The translations under genes were made by a program, and so were the position numbers. The notes beneath the pieces were generated by a model. The model had not been told where the DNA came from. It saw only the letters and a program-made list of their open reading frames with translations, and made no database searches. From positions 1-34,158 of IMG/VR virus record IMGVR_UViG_3300032316_000233: a DNA stretch of 34,158 nucleotides; one strand, 5' to 3'. Origin of the DNA: a virus. Of the stretch, positions 3,452 to 33,828 are shown piece after piece; position 1 is the first letter of the stretch, and each line of letters opens with the position of its first letter.

Positions 3452-3483
3452 AAAAAAAGTTTGGGCGGCCCGGTCAGGCCGCC
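3452..3483 (-). terminator. Intrinsic terminator of the leftward replication operon
   Basis: On the minus strand, GGCGGCC (3483-3477) pairs with GGCCGCC (3470-3464) around a six-base loop holding the TGA stop of the primase gene. It is followed after five bases by a run of seven Ts (3458-3452). This is a good rho-independent terminator, and it separates the replication operon from the promoter at 3402-3446. Confidence 0.8.
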
Positions 3484-5783
3484 TCGTAGATCTTGGTCGG
3501 GGCGCCCCGCTGGCCCGTCCGCTGCAGCCGCACCGCGATCTGGCCCGCGTCCACCAGCGTCTGCATGACCTCCTCCCGCTCCCGCTTCTTCAGGAACTGC
3601 GTTGCCCGCGCCAGGTCGGAGCCCGTGATCGAGCCAGCCCGCTTGACAATCTGCAGCACCTTCTTGTGCGTGGCCTCGGTCTCGTTGTCGGAGACCTGAT
3701 CGTCGAAGAAGCTCTCGGCGTAACTGAGCAGCCAGGCCACGAAATCCCGGCTCATGGCGATGATCTCGCTGGTGATGATGGGCCGCACCGGGTCGCGGGC
3801 GATCGCCTCGATCATCGCGATCTTCGTCGACAGCTCCGTCGAGCGGACCCAGATGTAGCGCCCGTGGCGGCCGCGTTCGCGCTCCGTCAGCTTGATCGCC
3901 TTCAGCTCCTCGAGCGCGTCAGGATCCCAGGCCACCGAGATCAGGGACACGGCCGACGCTGACAGGTGCTGCTCGCCCGACAGGTTGCCGCCCGCCTTCT
4001 TGACTTCCCAGAATGCCTTCATCGCGTCCACCAGCGCTGCCGGCGGCGTGCGCGTGCGCTCCACGAAGCGGAACTCAGGGTAATCCTCGAAGGGCGGCAC
4101 CAGCAGGATGCGCGACAACATGCCGTTCTCCGCCATGGCCGGCTTCAGCGCAGGCGCCAGGCTGGAGGGGGTCGTCGAGCCGAAGACGTTGAAGTTTGGG
4201 TTGACAAGGTCGACGCGCTCGTTGGCCTTGTTGTCGACGTACTCCTGCCCATTGTAGATGCCCGAGGACGACGAGAAGAGCTCCAGCAGCATCTTCACGA
4301 TGCCGCGCTGGTGCGGGCTCGCGGTCTTCATCGCGACCTGCTCCAGCATCATGCCGAGCTCATCCATGTGGGAGATGCGGGACGGGTAGTCCTTCAGCGC
4401 GCGTAGCATGGCGCTGCCGGAGGAGAAGCTGTCGCCGCACAGCAGCTTGTCGAGGCCCGACGCCATGAACAGGCTCTTAATGCACTGGCGGCTGTGGTCC
4501 TTGCCCATGCCCGGCTTGGCGATCGCCACCGCGTACAGGTTCGTGCGCGTGTCCGTGAACTCCGTCCGGTAGCGCCGGCCGAACATCGTGCCGAGCGCGA
4601 CCAGCGTGTTGGCTAGGGCGAAGGTCGGCAGCGGATCCTGAGCCGTGTTCACGATCCAGCGGGTGATCTCGCCGACCAGGGAGCGGCTCTCAAACCACGC
4701 GTGCGGGAAGGTCTCGCGCGAGCCTGGCGGCAGATCCTTCGCGTTCTTCGCCGGCGGTGCCGGAGGCGGAGGGGGAGCTGGCGGCGGTGCGGCCACCTTG
4801 GCGCGCAGCTTGGAGGTGTCGATCGGGTTCTCCGCGATCTCGGCCTTCTCAGCGTTCAGGGCGACGTCGAAGGGGGCGACCCAGCCGTGCTCCATCGCGA
4901 GGTGGTAGATCGTGCCTGCGCCGATCCTGCGGGGCGGGCTGCGGCGGTAGCTGGCCCATCGCTCGCGGCAGGCTGCGGCGTCATATTTCGAGGAGGTCGA
5001 GGACCAGCCGTCGAACACGTCGAACCCCTGGCCGCCGGTGGCGGCGTAGATCGCCATGCCGACGCGGTTCCAATCTTCCCAATGCAGGTCGGGGTTCGGG
5101 ATGGCCTGGAGCGCCAGGGCGACCGCCTCGTGCGTGCCCTCCAGGACGGGGTTGGCCATCGGCGCAGCGCCGCTCTGGGGCTGCTCGGGCGCGCCCACCA
5201 TGTCCGGCGGCAGGATCTCGCGGACGCGCCGCAGAACCTCCTCCAACTGCTCTGGGGTGCAGGGCGGGAGATCCTCGAGGGGGATGTCTGCCAGATGCTC
5301 GATCGGCCACGCGTAGGGCTTCTGCGTGTCGGGGTGCGTGGCGTAGGCCACAAACTGCTGGCCCTCGCCGAGCACCTCCAGGGGGCCAACGCGGCGCTTG
5401 CGCATGCGGCCGCCGACGGCGCGGTAGTTCAGCATCATCTTCGGCGCCCGGCCGACGCGCACGGCGGGCGTCTCGCCCAGCACGCTGACGATGCAGGAGC
5501 GCAGGCGGAAGGATAGCTGCTCATCGAGCGTGTCGATGTCGAAGCCGAGGACATCTCCGCACATGATGCCAATGCCGGCGCCAGGCCAACGCTTCCAGAG
5601 GTTCACCTGATAGACGTTCGCGGGCTGGTCGAGGTAGCGCTCCCACGACTGCATGTTCCGCCAACCGGCGGAGGAGGCCCAGACGCCGGGCTTCTTGGTC
5701 CCTGGCATGATGGGGATGATCGAGTATCCGTTGTCGATCAGGCGCTCGCCATGGAGCTGGAAGTAGTTCGGGCTGTCGGACAT
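3474..5783 (-). CDS. Primase-polymerase / helicase fusion, 769 aa
   Basis: The N-terminal region (about 10-190) resembles the bifunctional primase/polymerase (AEP) domain: GIGIMCG followed by FDIDTLDE, with Asp82 and Asp84 as the likely metal-binding pair, and a later LEVLGEGQQFVAYATHP block. Residues about 220-300 match a primase C-terminal PriCT-2-like domain (HWEDWNRVGMAIYAATGG to TIYHLAMEHGW). After a proline-rich linker (331-345) comes an ATPase domain of the DUF3987 type, with Walker A KPGMGKD (423-429) and a Walker B-like SHMDELG (471-477). It should prime and unwind DNA for phage replication in the cytoplasm. It follows RusA with TGATG coupling, and its transcript ends at the terminator at 3452-3483. 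Confidence 0.85.
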   Translation of the reverse strand: MSDSPNYFQLHGERLIDNGYSIIPIMPGTKKPGVWASSAGWRNMQSWERYLDQPANVYQVNLWKRWPGAGIGIMCGDVLGFDIDTLDEQLSFRLRSCIVSVLGETPAVRVGRAPKMMLNYRAVGGRMRKRRVGPLEVLGEGQQFVAYATHPDTQKPYAWPIEHLADIPLEDLPPCTPEQLEEVLRRVREILPPDMVGAPEQPQSGAAPMANPVLEGTHEAVALALQAIPNPDLHWEDWNRVGMAIYAATGGQGFDVFDGWSSTSSKYDAAACRERWASYRRSPPRRIGAGTIYHLAMEHGWVAPFDVALNAEKAEIAENPIDTSKLRAKVAAPPPAPPPPPAPPAKNAKDLPPGSRETFPHAWFESRSLVGEITRWIVNTAQDPLPTFALANTLVALGTMFGRRYRTEFTDTRTNLYAVAIAKPGMGKDHSRQCIKSLFMASGLDKLLCGDSFSSGSAMLRALKDYPSRISHMDELGMMLEQVAMKTASPHQRGIVKMLLELFSSSSGIYNGQEYVDNKANERVDLVNPNFNVFGSTTPSSLAPALKPAMAENGMLSRILLVPPFEDYPEFRFVERTRTPPAALVDAMKAFWEVKKAGGNLSGEQHLSASAVSLISVAWDPDALEELKAIKLTERERGRHGRYIWVRSTELSTKIAMIEAIARDPVRPIITSEIIAMSRDFVAWLLSYAESFFDDQVSDNETEATHKKVLQIVKRAGSITGSDLARATQFLKKREREEVMQTLVDAGQIAVRLQRTGQRGAPTKIYEAA

Positions 5784-8584: not shown

Positions 8585-9538
8585 ATGGCACCCCTTCCGC
8601 CCATCCCCCTCACGACCGTCGGCGCGATCTACGCAGCCTACGAGGCCGAGCGCGAAGACCACCGGCGCGGTCACCTTGGCGCGTCCCTGATCGGGGGCGA
8701 GTGCGATCGCGCTCTCTGGCTCTCGTTCCGCTGGGCCTCGACGCCTCAATTTGACGGCCGCATGCTGCGGCTGTTCCAAACCGGTCACATGGCCGAGGCG
8801 CGCTTCGTCGCCGACCTCCGCCGCATCGGCGTGACGGTGCATGAGACCGACCCCGAGACCGGCCGCCAGATCTCCGTCTCCGCCGCCGGCGGGCACTTCT
8901 CGGGCTCCCTGGATGGCGCCGCGATCGGGATCCCCGAGGCGCCGAAGACCTGGCACGCCCTCGAGTTCAAGACGCATAACGTCAAGTCTTTTGCCAAGCT
9001 GAAGGCGGATGGCGTCCGGAAGGCGAAGCCGCAACACTGGGCCCAGATGCAGGTCTACATGCACCTGTCGGAGATGACGCGCGCGCTTTACCTCGCGGTG
9101 TGCAAGGACACTGACGAACTGTATGGCGAGCGCGTCGAGCACGACGAGGCCGAGGCCCTGAAGCTGGTGGCGAAGGGCCAGCGCATCGTGCAGGCGGGTC
9201 GGCCGCCCGAGCGGATCTCGGCCGACCCTGCCTGGTTCCTGTGCCGCTATTGCGACCACCGGGCCACCTGCCAGGCCAAAGCGCTGCCCGACGTGAGCTG
9301 CCGCACCTGCGCGTGGTCGACGCCGGTGGAGGACGGCACCTGGGTCTGCGACAGGCACGAGAAGATCCTGTCGATCGGCGACCAGAAGGCCGCGTGCGCG
9401 GACCATCGTTACATCCCGGACCTCGTGGCCGGCGTGCAGGTTGACGCTGGCGAGGGGGGGGAGTGGATCTCCTACGCCATGCATGACGGCACGACCTGGA
9501 CTGACGGGCGGGACGCGAAGCCGGAGCCGACGCCATGA
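8585..9538 (+). CDS. Cas4/AddB-like PD-(D/E)XK nuclease with Fe-S cysteines, 317 aa
   Basis: Nuclease motifs are GSLD (Asp110), LEFK (Glu127-x-Lys129) and the QMQVYMH motif (Gln154). Cys40 in GGECDRALW together with Cys220-x2-Cys223-x5-Cys229 reproduces the split four-cysteine Fe-S arrangement of Cas4 and AddB nucleases. Beyond it, Cys239, Cys242, Cys255, Cys271 and His274 form a second likely metal site. The family resects DNA ends. Next to Sak4, SSB and a helicase it is the likely exonuclease of the recombination module, not a CRISPR component (no array or other cas genes). The ATG at 8585 follows GCAGGA and excludes an unsupported upstream extension. It ends in ATGA overlap with the helicase. 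Confidence 0.85.
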   Translation: MAPLPPIPLTTVGAIYAAYEAEREDHRRGHLGASLIGGECDRALWLSFRWASTPQFDGRMLRLFQTGHMAEARFVADLRRIGVTVHETDPETGRQISVSAAGGHFSGSLDGAAIGIPEAPKTWHALEFKTHNVKSFAKLKADGVRKAKPQHWAQMQVYMHLSEMTRALYLAVCKDTDELYGERVEHDEAEALKLVAKGQRIVQAGRPPERISADPAWFLCRYCDHRATCQAKALPDVSCRTCAWSTPVEDGTWVCDRHEKILSIGDQKAACADHRYIPDLVAGVQVDAGEGGEWISYAMHDGTTWTDGRDAKPEPTP

Positions 9539-11136
9539 TCAAGCTGCGGCCCTACCAGACCGAGGCGATCGAGGCCGTCTTCGGCTGGTGGGAAGAGCGT
9601 CCCGGCAATGCGCTGATCGTGCTCCCAACAGGGACGGGAAAATCTTTGGTCCTTGCCGACACCTGCCGCCGCTGCCTGGAGTGGCCCGGCACGCGCGTTC
9701 TGGTGCTGACGCATGTCCGCGAGCTGATCCGGCAGAATGCCGAGGAGCTGCTCCGCCTCTGGCCGGAGGCGCCGATCGGCATCAATTCCGCTGGCCTGGG
9801 GAAGCGGGACTACCGGTCGCAGATCGTGTTCGCCGGCATCCAGTCCGTTCACGATCACGCGACCCGCTTCGGCAAGGTCGACATCGTGCTGGTCGACGAG
9901 GCGCATCTGATCCCGCGCACCTCAAGCACGATGTATCGCAAGTTCCTGCGCGAGCTGGAGATCATCAACCCGTACCTGAAGGTGGTCGGCCTGACGGCGA
10001 CGCCGTACCGGCTGGACAGCGGCCGGCTGGACCAGGGTGAGGGCGCGATCTTCGACGGCATTGCCTACGAGTACGCCATGCGACGGGCGGTGGAAGAGGG
10101 CTATCTCTCACCGCTGATATCGAAGGCGACTGAGACGAAGCTGGACGTGACCGGCGTTGGCACGCGGGGCGGCGAGTTCATCGCGGGGGCGCTGGAGCGG
10201 GCGGTGGACATTGAGGCGATCAACCGGGCCGTCGTCGACGAGACCATCGCCTTCGGGCAGGACCGCAAGGCGTGGCTGTTCTTCTGCGCTGGCGTCCAGC
10301 ATGCGCAGCACATCCGGGATCTCGTCCGAGCCCGGGGCTACACCTGCGAGAACATCTTCGGCGACACGCCGAAGGCCGAGCGCGATCTGATCGTCGCCGA
10401 CTTCAAGGCGGGCAAGATCCGGGCGCTGGCGAGCATGGGCGTGCTGACGACCGGCTTTAACGCGCCGGCGGTGGACCTGATCGCGCTCGTCAGGCCGACG
10501 CAATCACCGGGGCTCTACGTCCAGATTGCCGGTCGAGGAAGCCGCCTGGCGCCTGGGAAGGAGAACTGTCTGGTTCTGGATTTCGCTCGGAACATCGAGC
10601 GCCACGGGCCGGTGGATCTCATCAACCCGCGCAAGCCGAAGCGCAGCGACGAGGAGGGGCAGGCGCCGGTGAAGACCTGCCCGGCCTGCGAGTGCTTCGT
10701 CCCGATCTCGGTGCGCGAATGCCAGGAGTGCGGTCACGAGTTCCCGCCTCCTCCCCCGCCGAAGATCGAGCGCACGGCGTCCACGCTGGCCATCCTGTCG
10801 AACGGCAAGCCGCAGTGGACCCGCGTCTCCTCGGTCACCTACCACGAGCACCGCAAGGCTTCGGATCCTGACGCGCCGCCGACCCTGCGCGTTGAGTACC
10901 GCTGCGGGATGGTCACGCATCGCGAATGGGTCGCACTGGAGCACAAGGGGTATGCGCGGCAGAAAGCGGCGTCGTGGTGGGTCGGTGTCGGGGGCCGAGC
11001 CCCTGTTCCAAACAGTGTCGCCGAGGCCCTTGGACGGGTCGGAGAGCTCCCTCCCATTGAGGAAGTTCAGCTCCGCGATGCTGGGCGACACGCCGAGATT
11101 GTGGGGCGTCGGGCTATGCGCTCGGTGCCTGCGTGA
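9535..11136 (+). CDS. SF2 DEAH-box helicase with zinc-finger, 533 aa
   Basis: Motifs appear in order: RPYQTEAI (Q-like), PTGTGKS (31-37, motif I), VLTHVRELI (Ia), DEAH (121-124, II), TATP (154-157, III), the TTGFNAPAVD region (motif V) and AGRGSRLAPGK (332-342, VI). A four-cysteine zinc finger, CPACECF to CQECGHEF (Cys382 to Cys399), and a Pro-rich stretch follow the helicase core, then a C-terminal region of about 125 residues. It belongs to the RecG/UvsW-like phage SF2 helicases, which act on branched DNA (family-level knowledge). Translation is coupled to the nuclease by ATGA, so the two probably work together in end processing or fork remodelling. Confidence 0.9.
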   Translation: MIKLRPYQTEAIEAVFGWWEERPGNALIVLPTGTGKSLVLADTCRRCLEWPGTRVLVLTHVRELIRQNAEELLRLWPEAPIGINSAGLGKRDYRSQIVFAGIQSVHDHATRFGKVDIVLVDEAHLIPRTSSTMYRKFLRELEIINPYLKVVGLTATPYRLDSGRLDQGEGAIFDGIAYEYAMRRAVEEGYLSPLISKATETKLDVTGVGTRGGEFIAGALERAVDIEAINRAVVDETIAFGQDRKAWLFFCAGVQHAQHIRDLVRARGYTCENIFGDTPKAERDLIVADFKAGKIRALASMGVLTTGFNAPAVDLIALVRPTQSPGLYVQIAGRGSRLAPGKENCLVLDFARNIERHGPVDLINPRKPKRSDEEGQAPVKTCPACECFVPISVRECQECGHEFPPPPPPKIERTASTLAILSNGKPQWTRVSSVTYHEHRKASDPDAPPTLRVEYRCGMVTHREWVALEHKGYARQKAASWWVGVGGRAPVPNSVAEALGRVGELPPIEEVQLRDAGRHAEIVGRRAMRSVPA

Positions 11137-11896: not shown

Positions 11897-12112
11897 ATGT
11901 CGCATGGACCTTGGCAGCCTATCGAGACGTTCCCGCAAACATGCGTGCCTGTCCTATGGACGGACGGGTTCCGCATGCGCGTCGCCAACTGGACGCTCGA
12001 GATGTTCGACTATCCCGACGGAACGATAGTCTGTTCCGCCAACATGGAAGAGCTTGAAGATGGGATTGCCTGGATGGAAATTCCTACCGCGCCTTCGCCA
12101 TCCGAGCAGTGA
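11897..12112 (+). CDS. DUF551-like small protein, 71 aa
   Basis: The N-terminus WQPIETFPQTCVPVLWTDG has the W-x-P-I-x-T-x-P signature of DUF551-type phage proteins, followed by MRVANWTLEMFDY and a closing WMEIPTAP. Function is unknown for the family. I chose the ATG at 11897 because AAGGAAACGAG precedes it; a TTG at 11873 overlapping the previous stop is less likely. Its last 29 bases overlap the end of the convergent 1260-aa gene. Confidence 0.6.
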   Translation: MSHGPWQPIETFPQTCVPVLWTDGFRMRVANWTLEMFDYPDGTIVCSANMEELEDGIAWMEIPTAPSPSEQ

Positions 12113-15100
12113 CCAACCCACCCTTCCGCTTCGGCTTCTTGACCTCGCCGCCTTCGGCGTAGAGGTCAATCTCGCCTCGCAGGAACTTGTTGTAGGTCAC
12201 GTCCATCGGCTCACCGCGAATGCGGGCGGTGATGCCGATGCGCTTCTGCAGGGCCTGCAGATAGGGGATAGGCTCTGACTTCAGCCCCGTGTCCTTGCCG
12301 CCGCCGACCCAGGCTGCCGACTGGGCTTGGGCAGGCTGCATCTTTCGGTCCTTGGCAACCTTCTGCCCCATGGCCTCCAGGTAGGCGTACTCGCCTGGCA
12401 GAAGCGCACCCTCTTCACCGAAGCTCTTCTTGGCGCGATCCATGCCCACGATGTCGCGGATGTAGTGCGTGTCGGAGGTGATGGGGCGCCAGTTGCCCAG
12501 CAGGTTCTGCTGATAGCTGATCGGCTTCGGGTTGCTCACCGGGTCCATCTCGCCGCCAAGGAACTCGCGGGTGCGCTGCGCGTGTTGCACCTGCGCCTTG
12601 GCCCCGTAGGGCGGGGGGAGGTCGCCGGCCAGCGTCTGAACCGTCTTCCCCGTGCGCGGATCGGAGACCTGCACGACCTGCGGCAGAGGCTCGCCGCGCA
12701 GCGCCCGGTTCAAGTAGTGCGAGGCCGTGCGGACGTTGCTCTCAATCGGGTTCGTCATCGACGTCGAGGCGTTCACCAGCGTCCAGAGGCGGAAGCGCTC
12801 ATCGCCTTCGGTCGGGCCATACATCGCGCGGAAGTCATCGCGGAGCTGCTGCAGGTTATACCAGCCCTGGTTCTGCTCGCCGCCTGCTTCGATGTAGCGG
12901 CGCAGACGCGCGGGGCCCTCGCGCTCAAGGCCTTCAAGGCGCTCAGTGACCTTCGGCGCGGCACGGGGGAGGTCGAACTGAGGCACATCCGGCATGCGGT
13001 TCAGGGCCGCCGGAGAGAGGTCGTAAAGAACGCCCCTGCCGCCCACCTCAGCGTCGTAAGACGTCGCGGCGCGGTTCACCTCGCGGGCGATGCGCGCGCC
13101 CTCCGCCACCTTGCCAGAGGTTTCTGCAGCCTCCTGCGAGGCCAAGCGCATGCCGGGCAGCTTGCCGGCAAACAGCGCCTCGGTTGTCGGCACCTGCTTG
13201 GTCTTGCCCTTGCTGTCGGTGAGCGTGACCGTCTTGCCGTGGCGCGCGATCGCCTCGCCGATGATCTCGCGGTCGGCCAGCTTCAGTCGGGTCGCGGCGT
13301 CGATCGCTTCATCGGACTGGCTCGCCAGCCCCTCGCGCACAAGCGGCGAGGCCCCCCCGCCGGTGAGGCCGAGAGTGTCGTACAGCTCGCCCAGGCCCTT
13401 GTAGGTAAGATCGCCGGATGCGCCGGCCGCGCGATTGATGTCCGCTGCCGAGGCCATGCCGGGCGGTGAAATGCCGGACAGGGCAGGAGGAGCGTCAGCT
13501 GCGCGAGCAGCCGCCAGGCCACCCCTAGTCGCCTCGCCGCCCTCCGGCACCAGCCGCTCGGCGAGCGCCCGCGCAACCTTCATCACCGCGCCGCCCCGGC
13601 TGTAGCCGCCGATCGCCGCAGCGCGGCGGGCGCCCTCGGGCGCCATGCGCTTGCCCATCTCCTCGATGATCGCCTCGACGATCGGGCTCATCTTCGGCTC
13701 TTTCACTCGACCACCCTTCGCGAAGCCGGCGTTGTCGGGAGGAGGCAGCAAACGCTGCGGCTCGGGAGGCGGCAGCATGCGCTGGGGCTGCGGCACGTTC
13801 ACCGTGGGCTCGGTGCGCGGAGCCGCAGACGCCCTCGCACCTCCGCCGATGTTGCTGACAGCCTCCGACAGGCTGCGCAGGGTGTTCATGATGACGTTGC
13901 CGTTCGGGCCGCTCAGGAGCTTGTTGATGCGGGCGGGGTCGCTCGACGACAGGATCTCGCCGACCTCGCGCATCACGTTCTCGTTCACGCGGGTGCGCCC
14001 ACGAGCGAGCAGGCCACCCAGGAGAGCCGTGCCGCCGGTCGTCAGCGGATCACCGGACGTGAAAATACCAACGCCTGCGCCCGCGCCCGCCCCGATGCTC
14101 ATGTCGCGCAGCTGCTGGGCGGTCGTTGAGTTGCCCTGCGTTGCCGACCGCAGGCGGTTCATGATGCCCTCGCGGCGCACGAAGGCCTCGAGCTGACGCA
14201 GTTCGTCAGCCGGCATGACAACCTCGAGCTTGCGCCGGTTCGCACCGTCGAACAGCCTGACCACGTCGCGGCTGTCTGGGGCGTTGCGCACCGTGTTCGC
14301 CAGCTCGGCCGCGAAGCCTCGGCGGAACAGCTCCTGCTCGGGGCCACTCATGGCCCGGAAGGCCTTTTGCGTGTCGGTCAGCTGGATCGCGCGGTTCTGC
14401 CGGAAGAAGGTCTGGCCCGCCTCCAGCGCGTCTTCAGCGCCGAAGAACTGCCGGGCCATGCCTCGCGCCTGTCCGAACTCCGGCACGGCCGCGTCCAGCT
14501 CCTCGTTCAGCCTCCTGCGGATGCCATTCAGCACCCGCGCCTCATCGCCTCCACGGGGCGCGGCGTCGGCCGCCTCGCGCAGGTTTCGCTGCACCTGATC
14601 CCAGAACTGCAGGTTCGGCCGGATCTGACCGCCATCAGGGGTCATACCCCAAGTCATGCGGCCCTGATCGTCGAAGCTGAACGGGTTGCGGATGACGAGG
14701 TCGCCCTCAAGAACCGCCCGATCGGCTGCCTTCTTCTCGACATCGCGGATGGCGGCCTGGACGGCCGGCGACTGGGCGATGCGATCCAGCGTCGGGTTCC
14801 ACAGGTCGGCGCTCTCGCCGGCCTGATAGGCAGCCCGATAGAGCGGAGCGTTCACTCGGCGCGCGGTATCCCGCAGCGTCTCGTTGGTCGAAGTCATGTT
14901 CAGGTTGCCGCCGAACAGGTCTTCGATGAAGTCGCCGAAGCGACCCTTCTGCTCGGTGTACCGAGGATCGGTGGCTGCCCGCAGGCGAGCGGCGGCATCC
15001 TCGGAGGTGTTACCTGCAGCGCGCGCCAGGCGGAGCGTGCCGGTGGCTCCGAGGTCGCCGACCACAATGTCCTGGCCGGCTGCACGCGCGGCGGCGATGT

Positions 15101-15866
15101 CAGCAGCTGTCAGCACGTCCTCGACCCCGCGAGCGCGGTCGGCCTCAATCGTGCGGCGCACGGCGCGCTCGGCGAAACTCTGCGGAGCGAGCACACGCTG
15201 GCCGGCGTTAAAGGTTCCCATAGCGACGGCCGGGAGCGCCCCAAAGGCTGCACCCAGGCCGCCCTCTATTGCTGCGCCCATGAGGCGATCTTCCGCCCCC
15301 TCACCTCGGCCGAAGCCACTGGCCGCGCCACTGGCGCCACCGGCTGTGATGGCAGCCTTGACGCCGCGCCCCACAAACCCAAGCGGCATCGCCACAGACC
15401 CGGCAATGTTCGCGCCGAGGTAGGTGTTCGGAAACTGCTCTTCGGCCGCCTTATCAAGTGCGCGCTCAACATCACGAGCGGGCGCATAGGCCTCTGTCGC
15501 ACGGCTACCGAAAGTCTCGGGGAAGGCGCGCTCTGCCAGCATGCGGACACCGCCGACAGCTGGCGCGATCCCTCGGGCGATGCCCGCAAGGCCAACGCTG
15601 GGAACATTGAGGGCATTCTGTACGGACTGAGGCAGGCCTGCGACGGCCGCCGCGCGGCCTCCAGCCAGCTCGTCGTTGAAGTTGGCCAGGAAGCCAGCCC
15701 TGGCCGCTTGAGCCGCAGCATCCAGCTGGGTCAGCTGGGGAGCCGGAGTTGCCGCTCGCCCTCCCGCCGCCTCCTGCATGACGCGATTGATCGTCTCCGC
15801 CGGCGTGTCGGCCGGAAAGTTGACGACGAGACCGTTCGGGCCGTTAACGCGGATCTGTTCGGCCAT
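12084..15866 (-). CDS. Very large internal-virion/ejection-like protein, 1260 aa
   Basis: The N-terminus (IRVNGPNGLVVNFPADTP then ETINRVMQEAA) is a small domain often seen at the start of large phage virion and polyvalent proteins. Long Ala/Gly-rich helical stretches follow, then charged helices, Pro-rich linkers near residues 690-720 (PQPQRMLPPPEPQRLLPPP), and a C-terminal conserved part (NASTSMTNPIESNVRTASHY, GNWRPITSDTHYIRDIVG). Three glycine-pair motifs occur: FAKGGRV, YSRGGAV and YAEGGEV. Size, composition and position at the end of the tail operon fit a protein packed in the head and ejected with DNA. No lysozyme or transglycosylase motif is apparent, so enzymatic activity is not claimed. 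Confidence 0.6.
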   Translation of the reverse strand: MAEQIRVNGPNGLVVNFPADTPAETINRVMQEAAGGRAATPAPQLTQLDAAAQAARAGFLANFNDELAGGRAAAVAGLPQSVQNALNVPSVGLAGIARGIAPAVGGVRMLAERAFPETFGSRATEAYAPARDVERALDKAAEEQFPNTYLGANIAGSVAMPLGFVGRGVKAAITAGGASGAASGFGRGEGAEDRLMGAAIEGGLGAAFGALPAVAMGTFNAGQRVLAPQSFAERAVRRTIEADRARGVEDVLTAADIAAARAAGQDIVVGDLGATGTLRLARAAGNTSEDAAARLRAATDPRYTEQKGRFGDFIEDLFGGNLNMTSTNETLRDTARRVNAPLYRAAYQAGESADLWNPTLDRIAQSPAVQAAIRDVEKKAADRAVLEGDLVIRNPFSFDDQGRMTWGMTPDGGQIRPNLQFWDQVQRNLREAADAAPRGGDEARVLNGIRRRLNEELDAAVPEFGQARGMARQFFGAEDALEAGQTFFRQNRAIQLTDTQKAFRAMSGPEQELFRRGFAAELANTVRNAPDSRDVVRLFDGANRRKLEVVMPADELRQLEAFVRREGIMNRLRSATQGNSTTAQQLRDMSIGAGAGAGVGIFTSGDPLTTGGTALLGGLLARGRTRVNENVMREVGEILSSSDPARINKLLSGPNGNVIMNTLRSLSEAVSNIGGGARASAAPRTEPTVNVPQPQRMLPPPEPQRLLPPPDNAGFAKGGRVKEPKMSPIVEAIIEEMGKRMAPEGARRAAAIGGYSRGGAVMKVARALAERLVPEGGEATRGGLAAARAADAPPALSGISPPGMASAADINRAAGASGDLTYKGLGELYDTLGLTGGGASPLVREGLASQSDEAIDAATRLKLADREIIGEAIARHGKTVTLTDSKGKTKQVPTTEALFAGKLPGMRLASQEAAETSGKVAEGARIAREVNRAATSYDAEVGGRGVLYDLSPAALNRMPDVPQFDLPRAAPKVTERLEGLEREGPARLRRYIEAGGEQNQGWYNLQQLRDDFRAMYGPTEGDERFRLWTLVNASTSMTNPIESNVRTASHYLNRALRGEPLPQVVQVSDPRTGKTVQTLAGDLPPPYGAKAQVQHAQRTREFLGGEMDPVSNPKPISYQQNLLGNWRPITSDTHYIRDIVGMDRAKKSFGEEGALLPGEYAYLEAMGQKVAKDRKMQPAQAQSAAWVGGGKDTGLKSEPIPYLQALQKRIGITARIRGEPMDVTYNKFLRGEIDLYAEGGEVKKPKRKGGLVTARMAKAR
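12139..12169. other. Hairpin inside the end of the 1260-aa gene, opposite the rightward operon end
   Basis: TTGACCTC (12139-12146) pairs with GAGGTCAA (12162-12169), and GCCG (12147-12150) with CGGC (12155-12158). The structure lies about 30 bases after the last rightward stop and could slow rightward transcription. It sits in codons for the YAEGGEV motif, so coding constraint may explain it. Confidence 0.25.
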
Positions 15867-25305: not shown

Positions 25306-27237
25306 TTACGCGATGGCCAGGAAGATGTAGCTGGCAGTGTTGATGTTTACCAAGTTGCCACCAGCGTTGCTGAGTTCGAAGCCGCTCGCAGCCGTGTTCA
25401 CCCAGTCGGTCCCGGTGACTTCGGCAGCCGTGCTGTTCAGCGTCAGATAGGGGTCGTTGCCTGCGACGATGCCACGTGCGCTGTCCCACACATACCAGTC
25501 GCCCGTGCTGTCGGTACGCTTGATCAGGACGAACCGCGCACCAGCCGCGAAGCCGCAGTTGATGACCTGGGTCGCGCCCGTGCCAGTGTAGGTGCCGACC
25601 TTGCTGACGCCGGGACAGGAGGCGAAGAGGTAGGCGACGTAGGTGCCGCCAGCATAGTTCACAAAATCTGTGCTTGAGAGATTGAGTAGTGTGCTTGTGG
25701 GTGCTGCGGTATTAAAAAAATTCCAAGGAGCCCCATCAGCCGAAGCGCTTAACTCCAAAAACATATATCCAACATAAGCACTAGATACCGCCCATCGCCC
25801 TGTAATGGGGCCGCTTCGCAATTTCACAATCATCAATTCCGGTGCCACACCCAAGTTATGCGCCACCGTGCGGGCAACGCCCGTTCCCGTGTAGCACACC
25901 ACGTCGAAGAAGCCTGGGGCGCGACGAAACGCCTCAAGGATTCTTGTCCCTGATCCATTCGACGTGTTATTGCCTTGCCCGTTAGAAAAATAAACCTGTG
26001 TATTTGAGTCTAGTCGAGGAAACGCAGACGAACTCTCGGCAGAATTCTGTTGGGTGGACACCTCCTGCGTACCGCCGCGTAAACGATCAGTTGCAGAAAA
26101 ATTGTAAGAAGTACCCGCACGATTTGCGAATAACCCCAAATCAACCGGGAAGCCGGTTGTCTGCGGGTTTCCTGACGTTAAGGTCCCTGCGTAAGCAACA
26201 GGTGAAAACACACTCGTCCCGGTCGTCGGGGTCCGCATCGGGCCGCGCCGGATGGCGATGTAGATGTAATTGAAGCCATCCTGGTTATAGTCAATGTCGG
26301 TCGTCTCAAGTTGGAAACCCGTGGCTGTCGGCCTTACAAATGTGCCCGTGCTTTCGGAGTTGGGGAGATTTGGATTTAGTTCTGCGTCATTCGCGCCGAC
26401 AGGGAACCCACGCATATTGTCGATAAGGTTCCAATCTCCGCCGCCAACGCGCCTTATAAGTAACCATTGCGGCTCATAACCCAGCGCCACAACAGGGCCG
26501 GTCGCGGAGCCGTTGCCCGTATAGCTACCACAGCTAATCACATTGTCCGCGCCGGTCGCGCCAAAGCCGCCCGCGTCGTGGGCAAACAGGTACATGACAT
26601 AAGTGACGCCAGAAGCATTCATGCCTAAGGAATTGACAGCAATGCTTGTTGCCAAAGTAGAAATCGGAAACGAAAGTACATCTGATACAGCTGCTGAACT
26701 ATTGAGTAAAAACTCTCCAAAAATACGATTACTTCCACTGTCGCTAGAGCGGCAACAGGCTTTCCAATCGCCCGTCGTCGAGGTGGCCTTGATTATGATT
26801 GCGCCGGGTGCGCTTTGAAGATTGTGCGCCACAGTGCGACCAGCAACACCATTGCCCGTGTAGGTCACGATGTCGAAGAACTTCGGCTGCTCGCGGAAGG
26901 TCCAGGAGGCGTAGGTCGCCGCGTTGGTGTTGATCTTCGCAAGCGAGCCGATGCTGAAGCCGTTCGCAAGAAAGTCTGTCAGGCCCGTCGATTGCGTGGT
27001 CTGAGCAGTGATGGTGTTGGACGCGATGTCAAAGGTTGCGCCGCGTGCGGTGTCGTACAGCGCATGGTCGGTTGCGGCGCTGCGAGACTTTACCCAAACC
27101 AAACCTCCTTTGCCCGCCAGATCAATCCCGTTCGTGATCGTCTGCGTGCTGCCATTGCCCGTGTAGAGCCACGTGCTGAACACGTCCTCGATGAAGGTGG
27201 CGGATGTTGGCGTCGTGGCCTGGCTTGCGGAGAACAT
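25306..27237 (-). CDS. Modular receptor-binding tail fibre, 643 aa
   Basis: Start ATG at 27237, 11 bases after the previous stop. The protein has five similar modules, each built on a YTG[NT]G turn and a following [VI][KR]-type strand: LYTGNGSTQTITNG, TYTGNGVAGRTVAHNL, SYTGNGSATGPVVALG, CYTGTGVARTVAHNL and TYTGTGATQVINCG, mostly ending in W- or D-containing strands (GDWKACC, GDWNLIDNMRG, GDWYVWDSARG). This resembles the DUF7483 fibre domains, from memory. Patches within the gene (around 25660-25860, 25930-26160 and 26590-26770) are clearly more AT-rich than the rest, suggesting modules exchanged from other phages. It likely binds the host receptor. Confidence 0.8.
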   Translation of the reverse strand: MFSASQATTPTSATFIEDVFSTWLYTGNGSTQTITNGIDLAGKGGLVWVKSRSAATDHALYDTARGATFDIASNTITAQTTQSTGLTDFLANGFSIGSLAKINTNAATYASWTFREQPKFFDIVTYTGNGVAGRTVAHNLQSAPGAIIIKATSTTGDWKACCRSSDSGSNRIFGEFLLNSSAAVSDVLSFPISTLATSIAVNSLGMNASGVTYVMYLFAHDAGGFGATGADNVISCGSYTGNGSATGPVVALGYEPQWLLIRRVGGGDWNLIDNMRGFPVGANDAELNPNLPNSESTGTFVRPTATGFQLETTDIDYNQDGFNYIYIAIRRGPMRTPTTGTSVFSPVAYAGTLTSGNPQTTGFPVDLGLFANRAGTSYNFSATDRLRGGTQEVSTQQNSAESSSAFPRLDSNTQVYFSNGQGNNTSNGSGTRILEAFRRAPGFFDVVCYTGTGVARTVAHNLGVAPELMIVKLRSGPITGRWAVSSAYVGYMFLELSASADGAPWNFFNTAAPTSTLLNLSSTDFVNYAGGTYVAYLFASCPGVSKVGTYTGTGATQVINCGFAAGARFVLIKRTDSTGDWYVWDSARGIVAGNDPYLTLNSTAAEVTGTDWVNTAASGFELSNAGGNLVNINTASYIFLAIA

Positions 27238-27248
27238 GCGCTCGCCCC

Positions 27249-27860
27249 CTACGCCGCGTAGTTCTGCGCGATGGTGCGGGCCAGCCACACGCCACCGTCA
27301 GCCGTGAAGGCATACAGGTCGTAGCGGCTCGCCGTCGCCGTGATCGTCGGAGCTGTGCCGCCAGGCCAGCGCACCGCTGCGGGCCAAGTCACCGTGCGGG
27401 AACCCGTCGCGTCCTGGCGCAGGATCAGCAGGAAGCTGCGACCCGCCGTCGTGGCTGCCGGAAACGTGAAGGTGCAGTTGCCCGTCAGCGTCAGGTTCTG
27501 CACCGTGCCGGATGTCAGCACGATGGTGTAGTTCGTCCCGGTGTTGGCAGTGACCACCGCTTCCTTGTAGTCGCCGCCCAGGTCGAACCTGGCAGCGGGC
27601 GAGACGATGCCCAGGCCGAGATTGCCGCTGCTGTCGAGGCGCATCGCCTCAGTGCCGCCCTCGGTGAAGGCAATCGTGTCAGCCGCCGGGAAGAAGATCC
27701 CGGTGTTCGTGTCGCCGGTCGGGGCGATGGTTGGCGCGACGGCCGACCCTGCGGGAACCGCAATCGTGCCGGTGATCGAGGTGTTGCCGCTCGCATCGAG
27801 GACGATGTTGTTCGTCGCCGAGGCGTTGTGCTTCAGGTTCGTGGCTTGCAGGGTAGACAT
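27249..27860 (-). CDS. Tail fibre/spike protein, 203 aa
   Basis: The N-terminal half contains VLDASGNTSITGTIAVP, then GDTNTGIFFPAADTIAF and EAMRLDSSGNLGLG, a fibre-shaft repeat pattern very common in environmental phages. The second half (NLTLTGNCTFTFPAAT, VTWPAAVRWPGGTAPTITA) is a beta-rich knob-like domain of the kind found at fibre ends. The start ATG overlaps the stop of an 11-codon frame upstream (TGATG). Function as a short fibre or receptor-binding protein is inferred from family and location. Confidence 0.75.
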   Translation of the reverse strand: MSTLQATNLKHNASATNNIVLDASGNTSITGTIAVPAGSAVAPTIAPTGDTNTGIFFPAADTIAFTEGGTEAMRLDSSGNLGLGIVSPAARFDLGGDYKEAVVTANTGTNYTIVLTSGTVQNLTLTGNCTFTFPAATTAGRSFLLILRQDATGSRTVTWPAAVRWPGGTAPTITATASRYDLYAFTADGGVWLARTIAQNYAA

Positions 27861-29390: not shown

Positions 29391-29719
29391 CACGTTACAG
29401 TCCATGTCGAGCCAGAGCTAACAGTCACAGTCGCGCCCACAGCGACCGTGATGGGACCGAATGTACCAGCATTCTGCCCGGCCGGAATAGTGTAGTTTGT
29501 CGTGACCGTCTGACCATTCAGATAGAACGTCTGGTCATTGCCGCCGCCGGTCGCTCCGCCACCGAAGCTCTTAACCGTGCCCCCGGTGTCCTTGTAGAAG
29601 AGCTTGCCGTCCGTCGTGTTGATCGCCAGCTCGCCCGCAGCCATGTTGCCCGCCAAGGGCACGGCTCCACCGGTCGTGGATCTAAACAACTGAATAGGCG
29701 TGAAGCCTGCTTGCGCCAT
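29390..29719 (-). CDS. Tail fibre segment protein, 109 aa
   Basis: The protein starts AGFTPIQLFRSTTGGAVPLAG and AGELAINTTDGKLFYKDTGG, a short fibre-shaft pattern that is extremely common in phage tail fibre proteins, and ends in a beta-rich segment (NYTIPAGQNAGTFGPITVAVG). It is shorter than most proteins carrying this pattern, so it may represent a separate subunit of a multi-gene fibre. Coupled by TGATG to the 603-aa fibre gene upstream and, at its end, to the 21-codon frame. Confidence 0.7.
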   Translation of the reverse strand: MAQAGFTPIQLFRSTTGGAVPLAGNMAAGELAINTTDGKLFYKDTGGTVKSFGGGATGGGNDQTFYLNGQTVTTNYTIPAGQNAGTFGPITVAVGATVTVSSGSTWTVT

Positions 29720-31530
29720 CAGAATGTTCCTCCATCAATGCCGGCCCAAGTGGGTGCGCTGGCGCCCGCAGACACCAGCACCTGCCCGGCAGTGCCCGCC
29801 GCGCTAAACGCATAGGCCGTGCCCGTGCCGTAGGCGACAGCACCCGCCGTGGGTGTCGCAGTGCCATTCGTGCCACCGTAAGCGGTGCCGATGGTCGTCG
29901 CGTTCCACGTCCCGGCAGTCAGCGTCCCGACGCCCGTGACGCCCGTGTAGGAGCCGCTGATACGAGCCGTATCAATCGTGCCAGACGTGACCTGGTTGGC
30001 GGCAATCGCGATGGGCGCGTCAGCCGCCGCAGTCAGCTGGCCCTGGGCATTCACCGTGAACGTGCCGACAGAAGACGCAGATCCGTAGGAACCCGCCGTC
30101 ACCGCCGTGCTGGTGATGCTGAAGACGGTCCCGGCAAGGGTCAGGCCGGTGCCTGCGGTGTAGGTTACGACCCCCGAACTAAACTGCGAGAACTCGATTG
30201 CCGTGGTGCCGACCGTGATAGGTAGCGGTGTCTGCTGCACCCAGGAGGTGTTAGCGTTGACCCCGCCTGCCGTTATCAGGAAGAAGTCGCCCGCGTCGAT
30301 CTGATTGACGCCCGTGCCGGGCGTGTCGAAGTCAGTCGCGCGGGTGAGAATGAATGGCGTGGCGCCGCTGCCAGTTTGGGTAACGACATAGACGCCGTTG
30401 TGGGCCTGATTAACTTGGTCCTTGACCAAGATCCTATTATTTATATTGACGGGTCTGCTGTCGACCGACAACGACCCATTTGCCGTGGCTGTCAGCGTCG
30501 CACCGACGCCCGAAGCCCCGTTGTTATAGGTGCAGCTTGGCAGCGGCCCCGTTGTAGCCAACCGGCAGGCTTGGTGAAAGTTGAGGCCCGAAGCAATGGA
30601 ATCGGCATAGGTCTTGTTAACGATGTCGGTGCCGTTGGTCGGAGCAGTCGAAATGCTGCCGGTCGTCAACGCGATCGCGTTGATCGTCGTGTTCGTCGCA
30701 GAGGTGACCTGCCCCTTGTCGTTCACGGTAATGACCGGCACGACCGCCTGGGAGCCGTAGGTTCCAGCAGACGCGCCAGAGCTGGGCAGGTCTGCCGCAA
30801 CCAGCGCGCGGAAGGACGGCGCAGCGCTGCCAGCTCCTGCAGCCGGGCCCGCCAGGATCTGATTGTGCGATTGCACGTTCAGCGTGGCGGTCAACGTGCC
30901 GCTGGTCGTAACGGGGCTACCAGAGACCACGAACAGGTCAGAGGGCATCGCTAGGGCGACGGACTGCACCGTGCCGCCCGAGGTGATGTCGTAGAAGCCC
31001 CTCGTGCCAGATCCGTCGGTGCCGTAATACTTGGACCCGCCAGGCGAAACCTGATCGCCCTGAAGCGACAGCGTGAGGTTCGCGTTGAGGGCGCCACCGC
31101 CAATCAGGGAGCCGCTCGTGTCGACGCGCCGATCGGTGCTTACGCCGTCAGTGATGCCATACCCGGCCAGCGTGGTGGGCTTGCTGCCGACGTTGGCGAA
31201 GGTGAGCGCCACCTGCGAGGCAGCGTCCACGCGGCCGTAGTTGTCGACCGAGATCACCGGGATGAAGGACGCGCCACCCCAGACGCCGGCCGAGGAGTAA
31301 GGCGCGAGCGAGATGGTGCGATCTTGCGAAAGGTCGCCACCGCCCACCAGTCCGGCGCCCGTGTCGATGCGCCGCGTGACGGGCACAGCCGTCGCCGACG
31401 TCGTGCTCGCAAGGCTGGCCTGCTTCGTGACGCCGCCCTGCACCAGGATGACCGTGTCCTGAGGCGTCGGGTTCTGCGCCAGCGGAAGCTGGGTGATGCG
31501 GGTCGGGATGAGGTTGGACGGGACCGTCAT
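29719..31530 (-). CDS. Large tail fibre protein, 603 aa
   Basis: N-terminal ITQLPLAQNPTPQDTVILVQGG is an attachment region usual in phage fibres. Shaft repeats follow, each with a V-x-D/N-x-x-G-x-[VL] turn: VDNYGRVDAASQ, VNDKGQVTSATN, VNAQGQLTAAAD. Around residues 310-420 sits a shared fibre domain with RILVKDQVNQAHNGVYVV and RATDFDTPGTG. The C-terminus GIDGGTF echoes the NVDGGSF end of the 445-aa protein. Its ATG overlaps the preceding gene by four bases. It is the largest fibre component in the window; function as long tail fibre is inferred. Confidence 0.8.
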   Translation of the reverse strand: MTVPSNLIPTRITQLPLAQNPTPQDTVILVQGGVTKQASLASTTSATAVPVTRRIDTGAGLVGGGDLSQDRTISLAPYSSAGVWGGASFIPVISVDNYGRVDAASQVALTFANVGSKPTTLAGYGITDGVSTDRRVDTSGSLIGGGALNANLTLSLQGDQVSPGGSKYYGTDGSGTRGFYDITSGGTVQSVALAMPSDLFVVSGSPVTTSGTLTATLNVQSHNQILAGPAAGAGSAAPSFRALVAADLPSSGASAGTYGSQAVVPVITVNDKGQVTSATNTTINAIALTTGSISTAPTNGTDIVNKTYADSIASGLNFHQACRLATTGPLPSCTYNNGASGVGATLTATANGSLSVDSRPVNINNRILVKDQVNQAHNGVYVVTQTGSGATPFILTRATDFDTPGTGVNQIDAGDFFLITAGGVNANTSWVQQTPLPITVGTTAIEFSQFSSGVVTYTAGTGLTLAGTVFSITSTAVTAGSYGSASSVGTFTVNAQGQLTAAADAPIAIAANQVTSGTIDTARISGSYTGVTGVGTLTAGTWNATTIGTAYGGTNGTATPTAGAVAYGTGTAYAFSAAGTAGQVLVSAGASAPTWAGIDGGTF

Positions 31531-31829
31531 GGAACGAGATAGCCCTCGCCGTCTTCGGTGGTGATGAAGTCGTCCCCGTCCTGCGAGATGAGGCCGGCTG
31601 GCGCGGTCGCGATCGAGATGTCCGGTCGGACGAACGGCAGCACGATGCGGTCAGGCTGACGCGCCGGCAGGCGGTACGGGTCGAGATCGTCGAGATCCGC
31701 CTTGCAGACCCGCAGGCCTGGGTAGTTCGGATCCGAATACAGGTCGTCGAGTGACATCTTCCGCGAGCACCGGGCGCATATCCCGATGCCCAGCGTCGAT
31801 CGGCCGCGAGTGTCGAGAAAGACGCTCAT
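31527..31829 (-). CDS. Small Cys-containing phage structural-region protein, 100 aa
   Basis: The pattern GICARCSRKMSLDDLYSDPNYPGLRVCKADLDDLDPYRLP, seen here as ICARCSRKMSLDDL, PGLRVCKADLDD and PYRLPARQPD, recurs in many phage genomes between adaptor and fibre genes. Cys18, Cys21 and Cys42 may bind zinc or form a knuckle. The rest is an extended segment (IVLPFVRPDISIAT). Its function is not known. It overlaps the adaptor-like gene and the fibre gene by four bases each, so it is co-translated with both. Confidence 0.7.
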   Translation of the reverse strand: MSVFLDTRGRSTLGIGICARCSRKMSLDDLYSDPNYPGLRVCKADLDDLDPYRLPARQPDRIVLPFVRPDISIATAPAGLISQDGDDFITTEDGEGYLVP

Positions 31830-32881
31830 CGGGTGTATGGCCGCAAATTTGGAGCTATCTTCATCGGGGAGCTGTCGCGCTCCTCGAAGAAGCAGGTCGC
31901 GAGCGCCTCGTCCGCGAGCCCCTTCAGCGTGCCGATCATGCCCGGATCAACCTGGGGCGTCTCGAGCGCCAGGCGATAGGCCAGCATCGCCACGAGGCCC
32001 TCATACCAGCGCTGCGGGATGTCAAGCGTCTGGTTCAGCGTGCCGACGTCCATCAGGTAGCGCCGGCGCCAGGTCACGATCTGGTTGAACTGCTGCGCGT
32101 AGCCCGGCACCGGCCAGAGCCGGATCACCGGCACTTCGCGCTGGCGATCGAGCCAGAACTGCTGCGGGCGGCCCAGGAAGGTCTTGTTGGGGAAGTTGAC
32201 GTAGTCGTCCTGGTTCAGCCGGGCGAGCGGGATCTCGGTCGGGTTGAAGCCGGGGTAGAACTCCGCGACGTTCAGCGTGGTGCCGTTAACGGCCCGCAGG
32301 CGATAGAAGGACATCGGGAGCGCGCCCTCGACGTCGAACCAGCGGAAGACGCGAGCCTCATAGACGAGCGGACCCAGAGCCAGCGCCGTCATCCAGGTGA
32401 CGCCATCGGTCGAGGTCTCGACGACGAAGTCGTAGGTGCCGGCGGCGGTCGTTGCAATGCCGTAGGTCGTAACCGCCATCTGCGACTGGCCGGCGATCGT
32501 GATCGAGCCGTTGGCCGTCGCCTGGGTGCAGGAGGTCAGCATGTCGCCGTCGAAGGCGTTGTCGGCCACGCCGCTGGAGGAGGTGTACGAGCCCTCGATC
32601 CGCTGCATGGTGCGGATGTTCGTGTTCAGCAGGTCGACGGTGCCGACGGGCGTGTCAACGTAGGAAACGCCGTACGTAAACGGCAGGATGGTCTTCTCGA
32701 CCGTCCAGAGGGGCAGGCCCCGGTTCACGAGGTCGGACATCAGCAGGTAGAGCGCATCGCGCGCCACGTCCTGCATTTCAGCCGTGATCGCCTGCGGCGG
32801 CAGCCGGCAGCGACGATACGCATGGTCGACGACCTTGTTGGTGTCGAAGACCGTCGTCGATGTCGTCCCGGAGACCGTCAC
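31826..32881 (-). CDS. Tail adaptor-like protein with inserted discoidin-like domain, 351 aa
   Basis: The N-terminal 90 residues (KVVDHAYRRCRLPPQAI, ALYLLMSDLVNRGLPLWTVEK, PVGTVDLLN) and the C-terminal part (NFPNKTFLGRPQQFWLDRQ, ALETPQVDPG) look like a phage tail/adaptor component. Between them, residues about 93-210 resemble an F5/8C (discoidin) jelly-roll: ADNAFDGD, an ending like YRLRAVNG, and the strand WMTALALGPLVYEARVF between. The start is a GTG at 32881 with GGTAGGG upstream. It is likely part of the tail hub exposing a carbohydrate-binding domain, an inference from motif only. Confidence 0.6.
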   Translation of the reverse strand: MTVSGTTSTTVFDTNKVVDHAYRRCRLPPQAITAEMQDVARDALYLLMSDLVNRGLPLWTVEKTILPFTYGVSYVDTPVGTVDLLNTNIRTMQRIEGSYTSSSGVADNAFDGDMLTSCTQATANGSITIAGQSQMAVTTYGIATTAAGTYDFVVETSTDGVTWMTALALGPLVYEARVFRWFDVEGALPMSFYRLRAVNGTTLNVAEFYPGFNPTEIPLARLNQDDYVNFPNKTFLGRPQQFWLDRQREVPVIRLWPVPGYAQQFNQIVTWRRRYLMDVGTLNQTLDIPQRWYEGLVAMLAYRLALETPQVDPGMIGTLKGLADEALATCFFEERDSSPMKIAPNLRPYTR

Positions 32882-32899
32882 GTCACGACCCTACCGCGA

Positions 32900-32961
32900 G
32901 GAGCGGCCCGCCAGCCGAGCCGCTCCAACCATACACGCAAAGTTGGCAGAATACCAACTTT
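32900..32961 (-). promoter_or_regulatory. Two hairpins and a possible promoter before the adaptor-like gene
   Basis: AAAGTTGG/CCAACTTT (32939-32961, 7-base loop) follows the stop of the gene at 32971, and GGAGCGGC/GCCGCTCC (32900-32926, 11-base loop) lies just ahead of the GTG at 32881. On the minus strand TTGGTA (32957-32952) and TATGGT (32933-32928) are 18 bases apart, each a four-of-six match to sigma70. There is no U-tract. An mRNA structure controlling the GTG start or a weak late promoter are both possible. Confidence 0.35.
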
Positions 32962-32970
32962 CCCGTCACT

Positions 32971-33189
32971 TCAGCAGCCGGCCTTGCCGCCCTTGGCCTT
33001 CATGGCCGACGGCTTGACCATCTTCTTGATCATGGCCTTGTCCATGGCTGCGTCCTCGTGGACCTTGCCGCCCTTGGCCTTCATGGTTACGCAGCCACCG
33101 CGCGCGTAGCCGCTGACCATAATCTTCCCAGCCGAGCCGCTAAAGCCCTTGTCGGAGGGGAACTTAAACTCGCCGTACTTGACAGCCAT
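32971..33189 (-). CDS. Small basic protein with KAKGGK repeats, 72 aa
   Basis: After MAVKYGEFKFPSDKGFSG the protein contains YARGGCVTMKAKGGK and, 27 residues later, SAMKAKGGKAGC. The two copies of MKAKGGK are encoded by a 24-bp perfect repeat (32982-33005 and 33063-33086). Lys-rich and without enzyme motifs, it could bind DNA or the acidic surfaces of virion proteins. The same glycine-pair motif appears in the large presumed ejection proteins. Similar small KGG proteins are seen in environmental short-tailed phages. Confidence 0.6.
   Translation of the reverse strand: MAVKYGEFKFPSDKGFSGSAGKIMVSGYARGGCVTMKAKGGKVHEDAAMDKAMIKKMVKPSAMKAKGGKAGC
32982..33086 (-). repeat. 24-bp direct repeat within the basic protein gene
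   Basis: The 24-bp unit at 32982-33005 is repeated exactly at 33063-33086, 81 bp (27 codons) apart in the same frame. Each copy encodes the MKAKGGK motif. Identity at the DNA level implies either a recent duplication or gene conversion between the copies. Confidence 0.75.
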
Positions 33190-33511: not shown

Positions 33512-33772
33512 TCAGCAATCCCACTTCCTGAGCGCGAGGGCCTTGCGCGTCGGCCGCCCCTTCTCGTCCTTCATCGGACCCGGCATGCCTGACGTCCTGG
33601 CGCAGAACGACTTCCGCCGCCCGGCCGCCACGTCGCTCTTCGCCGCTTGCTTGGCTGAGACCGGCGGCTTGATGTCGTGGCCCTGAGCCCGCAAAGACGC
33701 GCGCCCCTTGGCGTTCAGGCCGCCCTCGGGGTTCTTGCCTTCCTTACGCTGCCAGGCAGGCGTCTTCGGCAT
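33512..33772 (-). CDS. DUF6321-like small phage protein, 86 aa
   Basis: I take the ATG at 33772 (GGAGAGCGG before it). The protein starts MPKTPAWQRKEGKNPEGGLN and contains GHDIKPPVSAKQAAKS, RRKSFCARTSGMPGPMKDE and RPTRKALALRKWDC, the pattern of DUF6321 as I remember it. Function unknown; basic and probably nucleic acid or virion-associated. The frame is open to an ATG at 33826, two bases after the previous gene's stop; that extension contains QTRKALAL, a near copy of this protein's own C-terminus, encoded by a 20-bp repeat. The longer 104-aa form cannot be excluded. Confidence 0.75.
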   Translation of the reverse strand: MPKTPAWQRKEGKNPEGGLNAKGRASLRAQGHDIKPPVSAKQAAKSDVAAGRRKSFCARTSGMPGPMKDEKGRPTRKALALRKWDC

Positions 33773-33808
33773 CCGCTCTCTCCACAACAGCGCGAGGGCC
33801 TTGCGCGT
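33531..33808 (-). repeat. 20-bp direct repeats flanking the DUF6321 gene
   Basis: AGCGCGAGGGCCTTGCGCGT lies at 33531-33550 (C-terminal codons TRKALAL) and again at 33789-33808, just upstream of the preferred start. The copies are 258 bp apart, exactly 86 codons, so recombination between them would delete the gene and leave one in-frame copy. The upstream copy looks like the remnant of a duplicated DUF6321 end. Confidence 0.8.
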
Positions 33809-33828
33809 TTGCACATATGGCTGCATTG

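Follow-up and report, generated by a model that had tools for sequence, protein, structure and literature searches.

A predicted discoidin-type jelly roll inserted in the fibre-dock domain of a short-tailed phage head-to-tail adaptor

A binding fold otherwise familiar mainly from enzymes, lectins and clotting factors is predicted here to lie within the head-tail joining ring of a phage, which raises the question of what it does there. The window, that is, the whole stretch of DNA that was analysed, is a virus record of 34158 bases. The gene concerned occupies 31826-32881 on the minus strand and encodes 351 aa from a GTG start, as checked by ORF and translation; relative L002 starts at the identical residue with an ATG codon. 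A plus-strand ORF at 31751-33109 was rejected as a mere shadow of the gene, the adaptor homology being on the minus strand. Nearby genes on the same strand are of fibre, virion-structural, ejection and lysis types according to PHROG matches. The gene, its predicted parts and two of its neighbours are as follows.

31826..32881, minus strand: predicted head-to-tail adaptor with an inserted jelly roll, whole gene (351 aa, GTG start)
32720..32842, minus strand: helices 14-24 and 34-54, first half of the predicted helix bundle (AlphaFold2)
32612..32701, minus strand: first part of the predicted beta dock domain, residues 61-90 (AlphaFold2 and no-insert model)
32252..32611, minus strand: predicted inserted domain of discoidin/CBM32 fold, residues 91-210 (boundary, fold, and Pfam on L082)
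32507..32557, minus strand: AFDGD...T...Q...NG loop, residues 109-125 (alignment columns)
32261..32263, minus strand: E207 (alignment column)
32021..32251, minus strand: second part of the predicted beta dock domain, residues 211-287 (AlphaFold2 and no-insert model)
31880..32014, minus strand: helices within residues 290-334, second half of the predicted helix bundle (AlphaFold2)
31829..31879, minus strand: C-terminal tail, residues 335-351, of low pLDDT, in the place of the embracing loop or helix of T7 and SU10 (AlphaFold2)
31527..31829, minus strand: CxxC...C protein of 100 aa, encoded with a 4-base overlap at the adaptor stop
29719..31530, minus strand: 603-aa tail-fibre-like protein, a candidate partner (PHROG 8745 over residues 296-472)

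Elsewhere in the window, a 660-aa protein (25306-27288, minus strand) has a DUF7483 match (3.4e-87) and a tail-fibre PHROG in its C-terminal part, a 104-aa protein (33512-33826, minus strand) has a clear DUF6321 match (8.6e-24), and only about the first half of a 1260-aa protein (12084-15866, minus strand) is matched by PHROG 5880, a family of unknown function. A DNA helicase gene lies on the plus strand (9535-11136) and the primase and structural genes on the minus strand (among them 3474-5783), a local strand switch.

The fold of the insert was approached by structure prediction. AlphaFold2 run on a 71-row alignment gave a model with a mean pLDDT of 83.5, the insert reaching ~89-94 per ten-residue block. 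The best PDB matches of this model by Foldseek are CBM32 domains (E 9.5e-8). VIA-align places the model closest to solved CBM32/CBM62 and fucolectin domains, which bind sugar, with Z from 14.7 to 17.7, the highest being the AlyQ CBM32 (7d2a; rmsd 2.0 Å, 121 aligned, residues 91-213 of the model). Pfam F5_F8_type_C, with a cut-off of 28.2 bits, gives 18.2 bits (E 0.0027) for the window protein, 20.8 for the insert alone, and 31.9 over residues 93-199 of L082, a relative 60% identical; it matches 17 of the 71 rows at E up to 0.01. A PDB profile search with only the insert returned weak matches alone (E 0.011 to 0.053). Fold and sequence agree, and the insert is predicted to be a jelly roll of the discoidin/CBM32 type (F5/8-C, galactose-binding-like); a chance resemblance via the AFDGD motif alone is ruled out, as profile and fold searches concur. 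Among the papers listed by full-text searches of a collection thin in subscription journals, no title or displayed abstract describes a discoidin or CBM domain within a phage adaptor.

The boundary of the insert is sharp. The adaptor of the Roseobacter phage CRP-901 matches residues 5-90 (E 7e-13) and 211-307 (E 5e-17) by BLASTP, and the gap between the two matches is 3 residues in CRP-901 against 120 in the window protein. Comparison at the sequence level thus places residues 91-210 as a clean insertion, or as a loss on the other branch. The sequence-only reading had supposed that residues ~93-210 interrupt an adaptor and that AFDGD (residues 109-113) and YRLRAVNG (193-200) are features of an F5/8C jelly roll; the former is borne out to two residues by the CRP-901 split and the 71-row alignment, and the latter by the fold matches given above. 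It had also proposed structure prediction with a fold search, and comparison with shorter homologues without the insert, as checks: the one finds the jelly roll over residues 91-213 and the other the sharp boundary against CRP-901.

The 71 rows are the window protein and 35 of 41, 14 of 14, 14 of 14 and 7 of 8 representatives of hand-listed locus subsets, from which near-copies had been removed beforehand. The insert is 120-131 aa long in 38 rows (full form: the group of the window protein and that of ctpbd312), 95-99 in 26 (reduced form) and 3 in 7. A quick tree of 50 of these rows, in which 18 of 47 inner branches are open and long-branch warnings were raised (L155 being one long branch), places a single long branch between the no-insert group, taken as the outgroup, and the whole set of 45 insert-bearing rows. 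The insert is conserved less than the core in every group; within the group of the window protein, mean identity is 0.625 in the insert and 0.706 in the core, the insert being lower in 232 of 276 pairs. Fifteen columns are invariant across the 38 full-insert rows, and the stretches ~109-125 and ~194-209 are strongly conserved, while the groups are only 42% identical across the insert.

VIA-align on the full model returned jelly-roll chains only, and the placement of the core was therefore taken from a relative without the insert (L246, 1242-1919), whose model has a mean pLDDT of 78.2. This model aligns with the adaptors of GP4 (Z 14.0, rmsd 5.0, 199 aligned) and cyanophage A4 (Z 13.3, rmsd 4.0, 198 aligned; Foldseek E 2.5e-8), the portal-tail adaptors of LME-1, VP1 and KHP30 also being among the best rows, and with T7 gp11 (Z 10.3, rmsd 4.2, 159 aligned), the KP32 adaptor (Z 9.7, rmsd 3.8, 165 aligned) and SU10 gp11 (Z 9.6, rmsd 4.2, 188 aligned). 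Despite the modest Z of ~10, the placement is credible because the leading rows are of one protein kind and cover nearly the whole chain. By Foldseek, the insert-bearing full model also matches the A4 adaptor (E 3.1e-5). The Pfam family SU10_adaptor (PF24175, cut-off 27 bits) scores 19.1 bits with the window protein, 52.4 with CRP-901 and 28.6 with the insert-bearing L196, and reaches E 0.01 or better in 40 of the 71 rows. A PDB sequence search with the adaptor core matched no adaptor, only unrelated chains; a profile comparison with SU10 gp11 gave no match (probability 0.4%), and NCBIfam gave nothing for five of five proteins. In the homologue ctpbd312, the adaptor gene follows the major capsid protein and precedes a tail fibre, and in CRP-901 it comes after a head protein; the window ends before any identified capsid gene. 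The protein is thus modelled as a head-to-tail adaptor of short-tailed phage of the T7 gp11/SU10 gp11 type. "Adaptor-like" in the sequence-only reading stands, and its "tail hub" gives way to a head-to-tail adaptor on the GP4, A4, T7 and SU10 alignments. Several copies, which it had set around the tail, are still expected, probably 12 and around the neck, by homology with the T7 and SU10 adaptors.

The literature drawn on covers phage adaptors, virions and hosts (PMC9509320, PMC6702177, PMC10575957, PMC10276861, PMC13320782, PMC11053796). In the papers on T7 and SU10, the adaptor is described as having three parts: a bundle of helices, a domain that docks the fibres, and a C-terminal segment that embraces its neighbour. 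According to these papers, the T7 dock is a small jelly-roll barrel that forms one of the fibre interaction regions and is absent from P22 and Sf6, and in SU10 dock loops protrude radially from the dock domain and hold the long fibres. In the window protein, helices (14-54) are followed by strands (61-90 and 211-287), helices (290-334) and a low-confidence tail (335-351). The insertion point, 90/211, falls within the beta domain, which comprises residues 60-153 of the no-insert model. This order of parts is that of the T7 and SU10 adaptors, and therefore the insert would lie within the fibre-dock domain, between two of its strands in the models. A binding surface separate from the fibres, as had been supposed, is not borne out, the insert being placed in the domain with which T7 and SU10 hold their fibres. 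The dock beta domain of L246 (60-153) further shows weak alignments (Z 6-7), one to the N-terminus of the T7 fibre gp17 and one to CBA120 tailspike 4, hinting that fibre dock and fibre root share a fold in these models, maybe just a common arrangement.

The same stretch of the dock domain harbours a different insert of ~80 residues, with only approximate boundaries, in the Pelagibacter phage HTVC027P (L163, 2458-3393), and none in its relative HTVC023P (L407, 6001-6693). The site therefore tolerates insertions, and domains can apparently be added at the dock loop.

Insert-bearing adaptors are not confined to the window. Relatives of the adaptor, with or without the full insert, abound in viral contigs, where searches confirmed 529 stretches in one case and 289 in another, the best 80 of each being kept. 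Among 50,697 phage records, five have a match covering at least 80% of the query, namely four Caulobacter phages, which according to the host literature infect laboratory strains of C. vibrioides, and ctpbd312; the copy in ctpbd312 carries the full insert and that in GB2A the reduced form. By these sequence matches, the insert-bearing adaptor appears to be common among uncultivated phages, and the cultured Caulobacter phages have the reduced form.

The residues of the insert were compared with those of sugar-binding relatives. In an alignment with BF3579 (3f2z, CBM32-like), columns 118-119 correspond to the Trp-His of the pocket loop, and none of the 38 full inserts has W or H there; the loop 142-149, aligned with the Arg stretch of 3f2z, has no Arg in 38 of 38. 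A Trp elsewhere in the loop 112-125 is found in one of the 38. Trp/His and Arg are what we take to be the classical sugar-pocket residues of CBM32. D111, T116, Q120 and E207 are present in all 38 full inserts; D111, T116 and E207 are presumably as expected for the metal site of F5/8-C domains, E207 being a putative partner. In the reduced inserts, the D111 column is gapped in 26 of 26, and Glu at 207 is kept in 4 and gone in 22. Since the domain persists in two groups of relatives that have dropped the apical loop, this loop and the putative metal site appear, from the alignment, to be dispensable to the domain. The earlier designation of the insert as a sugar-binding domain fares poorly, the pocket residues being missing from 38 of 38 full inserts and related adaptors dropping the loop while keeping the domain. 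Sugar binding does not follow from the fold, and is possible via other residues or a non-classical pocket, because the top CBM32 matches bind sugar (AlyQ with sugar) though they are only 14-20% identical.

The gene downstream of the adaptor encodes the CxxC protein. All 12 aligned rows have C18, C21 and C42, and an extra Cys occurs in the two from the ctpbd312 group; no Pfam, PHROG or NCBIfam match was obtained for its 100 aa, and it is possibly a zinc knuckle. A homologue is found among the first three downstream ORFs in 310 of 310 insert-bearing loci (4/4, 74/74, 79/79, 77/77 and 76/76 by group) versus 0 of 71 no-insert loci and 0 of 5 other adaptor loci, a count limited to loci where some ORF of 60 aa or more lies downstream, which leaves out 8 of the 318 insert-bearing and 10 of the 81 no-insert loci. 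In whole named records, it is present in two of two with the insert and none of five without this insert. Conversely, when loci were fetched with the CxxC protein (best 80 of 578, many on contigs already seen), an adaptor lies upstream in 79 of 80, the exception being 203 bases from a contig edge. The identical 4-base overlap between adaptor and CxxC genes is the commonest arrangement (34 of 79). In five of 79 the gap is 237 to 667 bases, where other genes may intervene, and in five of 79 the upstream adaptor is short, which is read as the contig starting inside it. A 179-aa ORF directly follows the adaptor at L072 (1808-2348) and L081 (3968-4508), and in L072 its start resembles what we take to be the GIY-YIG homing endonuclease motif. 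The co-occurrence of insert and CxxC gene is confounded by common descent, because one long branch separates the no-insert group and the two traits may have been inherited together; at the level of sequence, it is a pointer to a partner, not proof. It is rather doubtful, if worth stating, that the two genes form an undescribed neck module in a large lineage of short-tailed phages, in which the 12 domains would bind the small metal-binding protein and the latter would mount or gate the fibres.

What, then, might the domain do? That it is an enlarged fibre dock, a structural mount, has in our analysis about an even chance of being right, and is more likely than sugar binding. By homology with T7 and SU10, 12 copies of the adaptor would ring the junction between portal and nozzle, and each would bear a jelly roll projecting from its dock domain, 12 in all around the neck. 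There the domain would stand in for the fibre-dock loops that protrude radially in SU10, a match in chain position to the SU10 loop not being implied, and might hold the roots of the fibres and/or a small collar protein, for example the co-encoded 100-aa CxxC protein. No solved virion structure from this lineage was found. The faster change of the insert relative to the core counts against such a mount, as it would also suit a host-facing domain. It would agree with a carbohydrate-binding module, 12 neck copies of which would weakly hold capsule or O-antigen sugars and so add to the fibres. In favour of this role, the solved structures nearest to the insert (CBM32/CBM62 and fucolectin, Z 14.7 to 17.7) are domains that bind sugar. 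The binding loops of CBM32 are at the end opposite to the chain termini, and outward display would thus be geometrically natural; other phage virion proteins, as described for the R4C baseplate, have such modules. Nevertheless, the absence of the classical Trp/His and Arg from all 38 full inserts and the loss of the DGD loop from all 26 reduced ones argue against it, and the conserved motifs at 109-125 and 194-209 are unlike a receptor-switching surface. The discoidin-type fold also serves protein and lipid binding. Such a module is accordingly the less probable role, at a level that we regard as unlikely.

Somewhat less likely again is a brace to the capsid. The accessory Ig-like domain of the R4C adaptor is described as contacting the capsid and judged unlikely to act in adsorption, and the SU10 adaptor ring, in the account drawn on, also faces the capsid; however, the R4C domain is N-terminal rather than inserted and has another fold. 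A neutral insertion with no dedicated partner in a permissive loop of the dock domain would accord with the different ~80-residue insert of HTVC027P in the same stretch and its lack in HTVC023P. The domain, full or reduced, is nevertheless kept in 64 of 64 rows of the insert groups, a count biased by fetching with insert-bearing queries, and its 15 invariant columns in the 38 full rows also speak against neutrality, which we consider improbable. If the insert docks fibres, as in the preferred reading of an enlarged dock, it would represent a new mode of fibre mounting; if it binds sugar, the neck would be a receptor-binding site. Both the docking and the sugar readings are directly testable, and the reduced form is available in Caulobacter phage RW.

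Several known systems share part of this arrangement. The insert has the jelly-roll fold in common with CBM32 or F5/8 type C domains (AlyQ, 7d2a, 2.0 Å; AlyB-OU02, 5zu6, 2.3 Å; BF3579, 3f2z), together with the DG..T loop, although it is 14-20% identical to the CBM32 domains that top the match list, does not share the classical pocket residues of 3f2z, and sits within a phage adaptor. SU10 gp11 and T7 gp11 have the same helix bundle, beta dock domain and C-terminal tail (Z ~10 with the no-insert relative), whereas the parts of the literature drawn on describe no inserted discoidin domain in them. The adaptor of roseophage R4C bears, as here, an accessory beta domain on the outside, but in the account drawn on this is an N-terminal Ig-like fold on a siphophage adaptor, with no insertion. 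The CRP-901 adaptor (WED25073.1) shows homology, at 31-38% identity, to either side of the insertion, but it is 226 aa long with three residues in place of the insert, and its whole record has no CxxC gene. The adaptors of the Caulobacter phages RW, GB2A, RLK and KcrB (GB2A gp075c), annotated as hypothetical protein, are 43.5% identical over 97% of the query and are likewise followed by a CxxC gene, but their insert is the reduced one, without the DGD loop.
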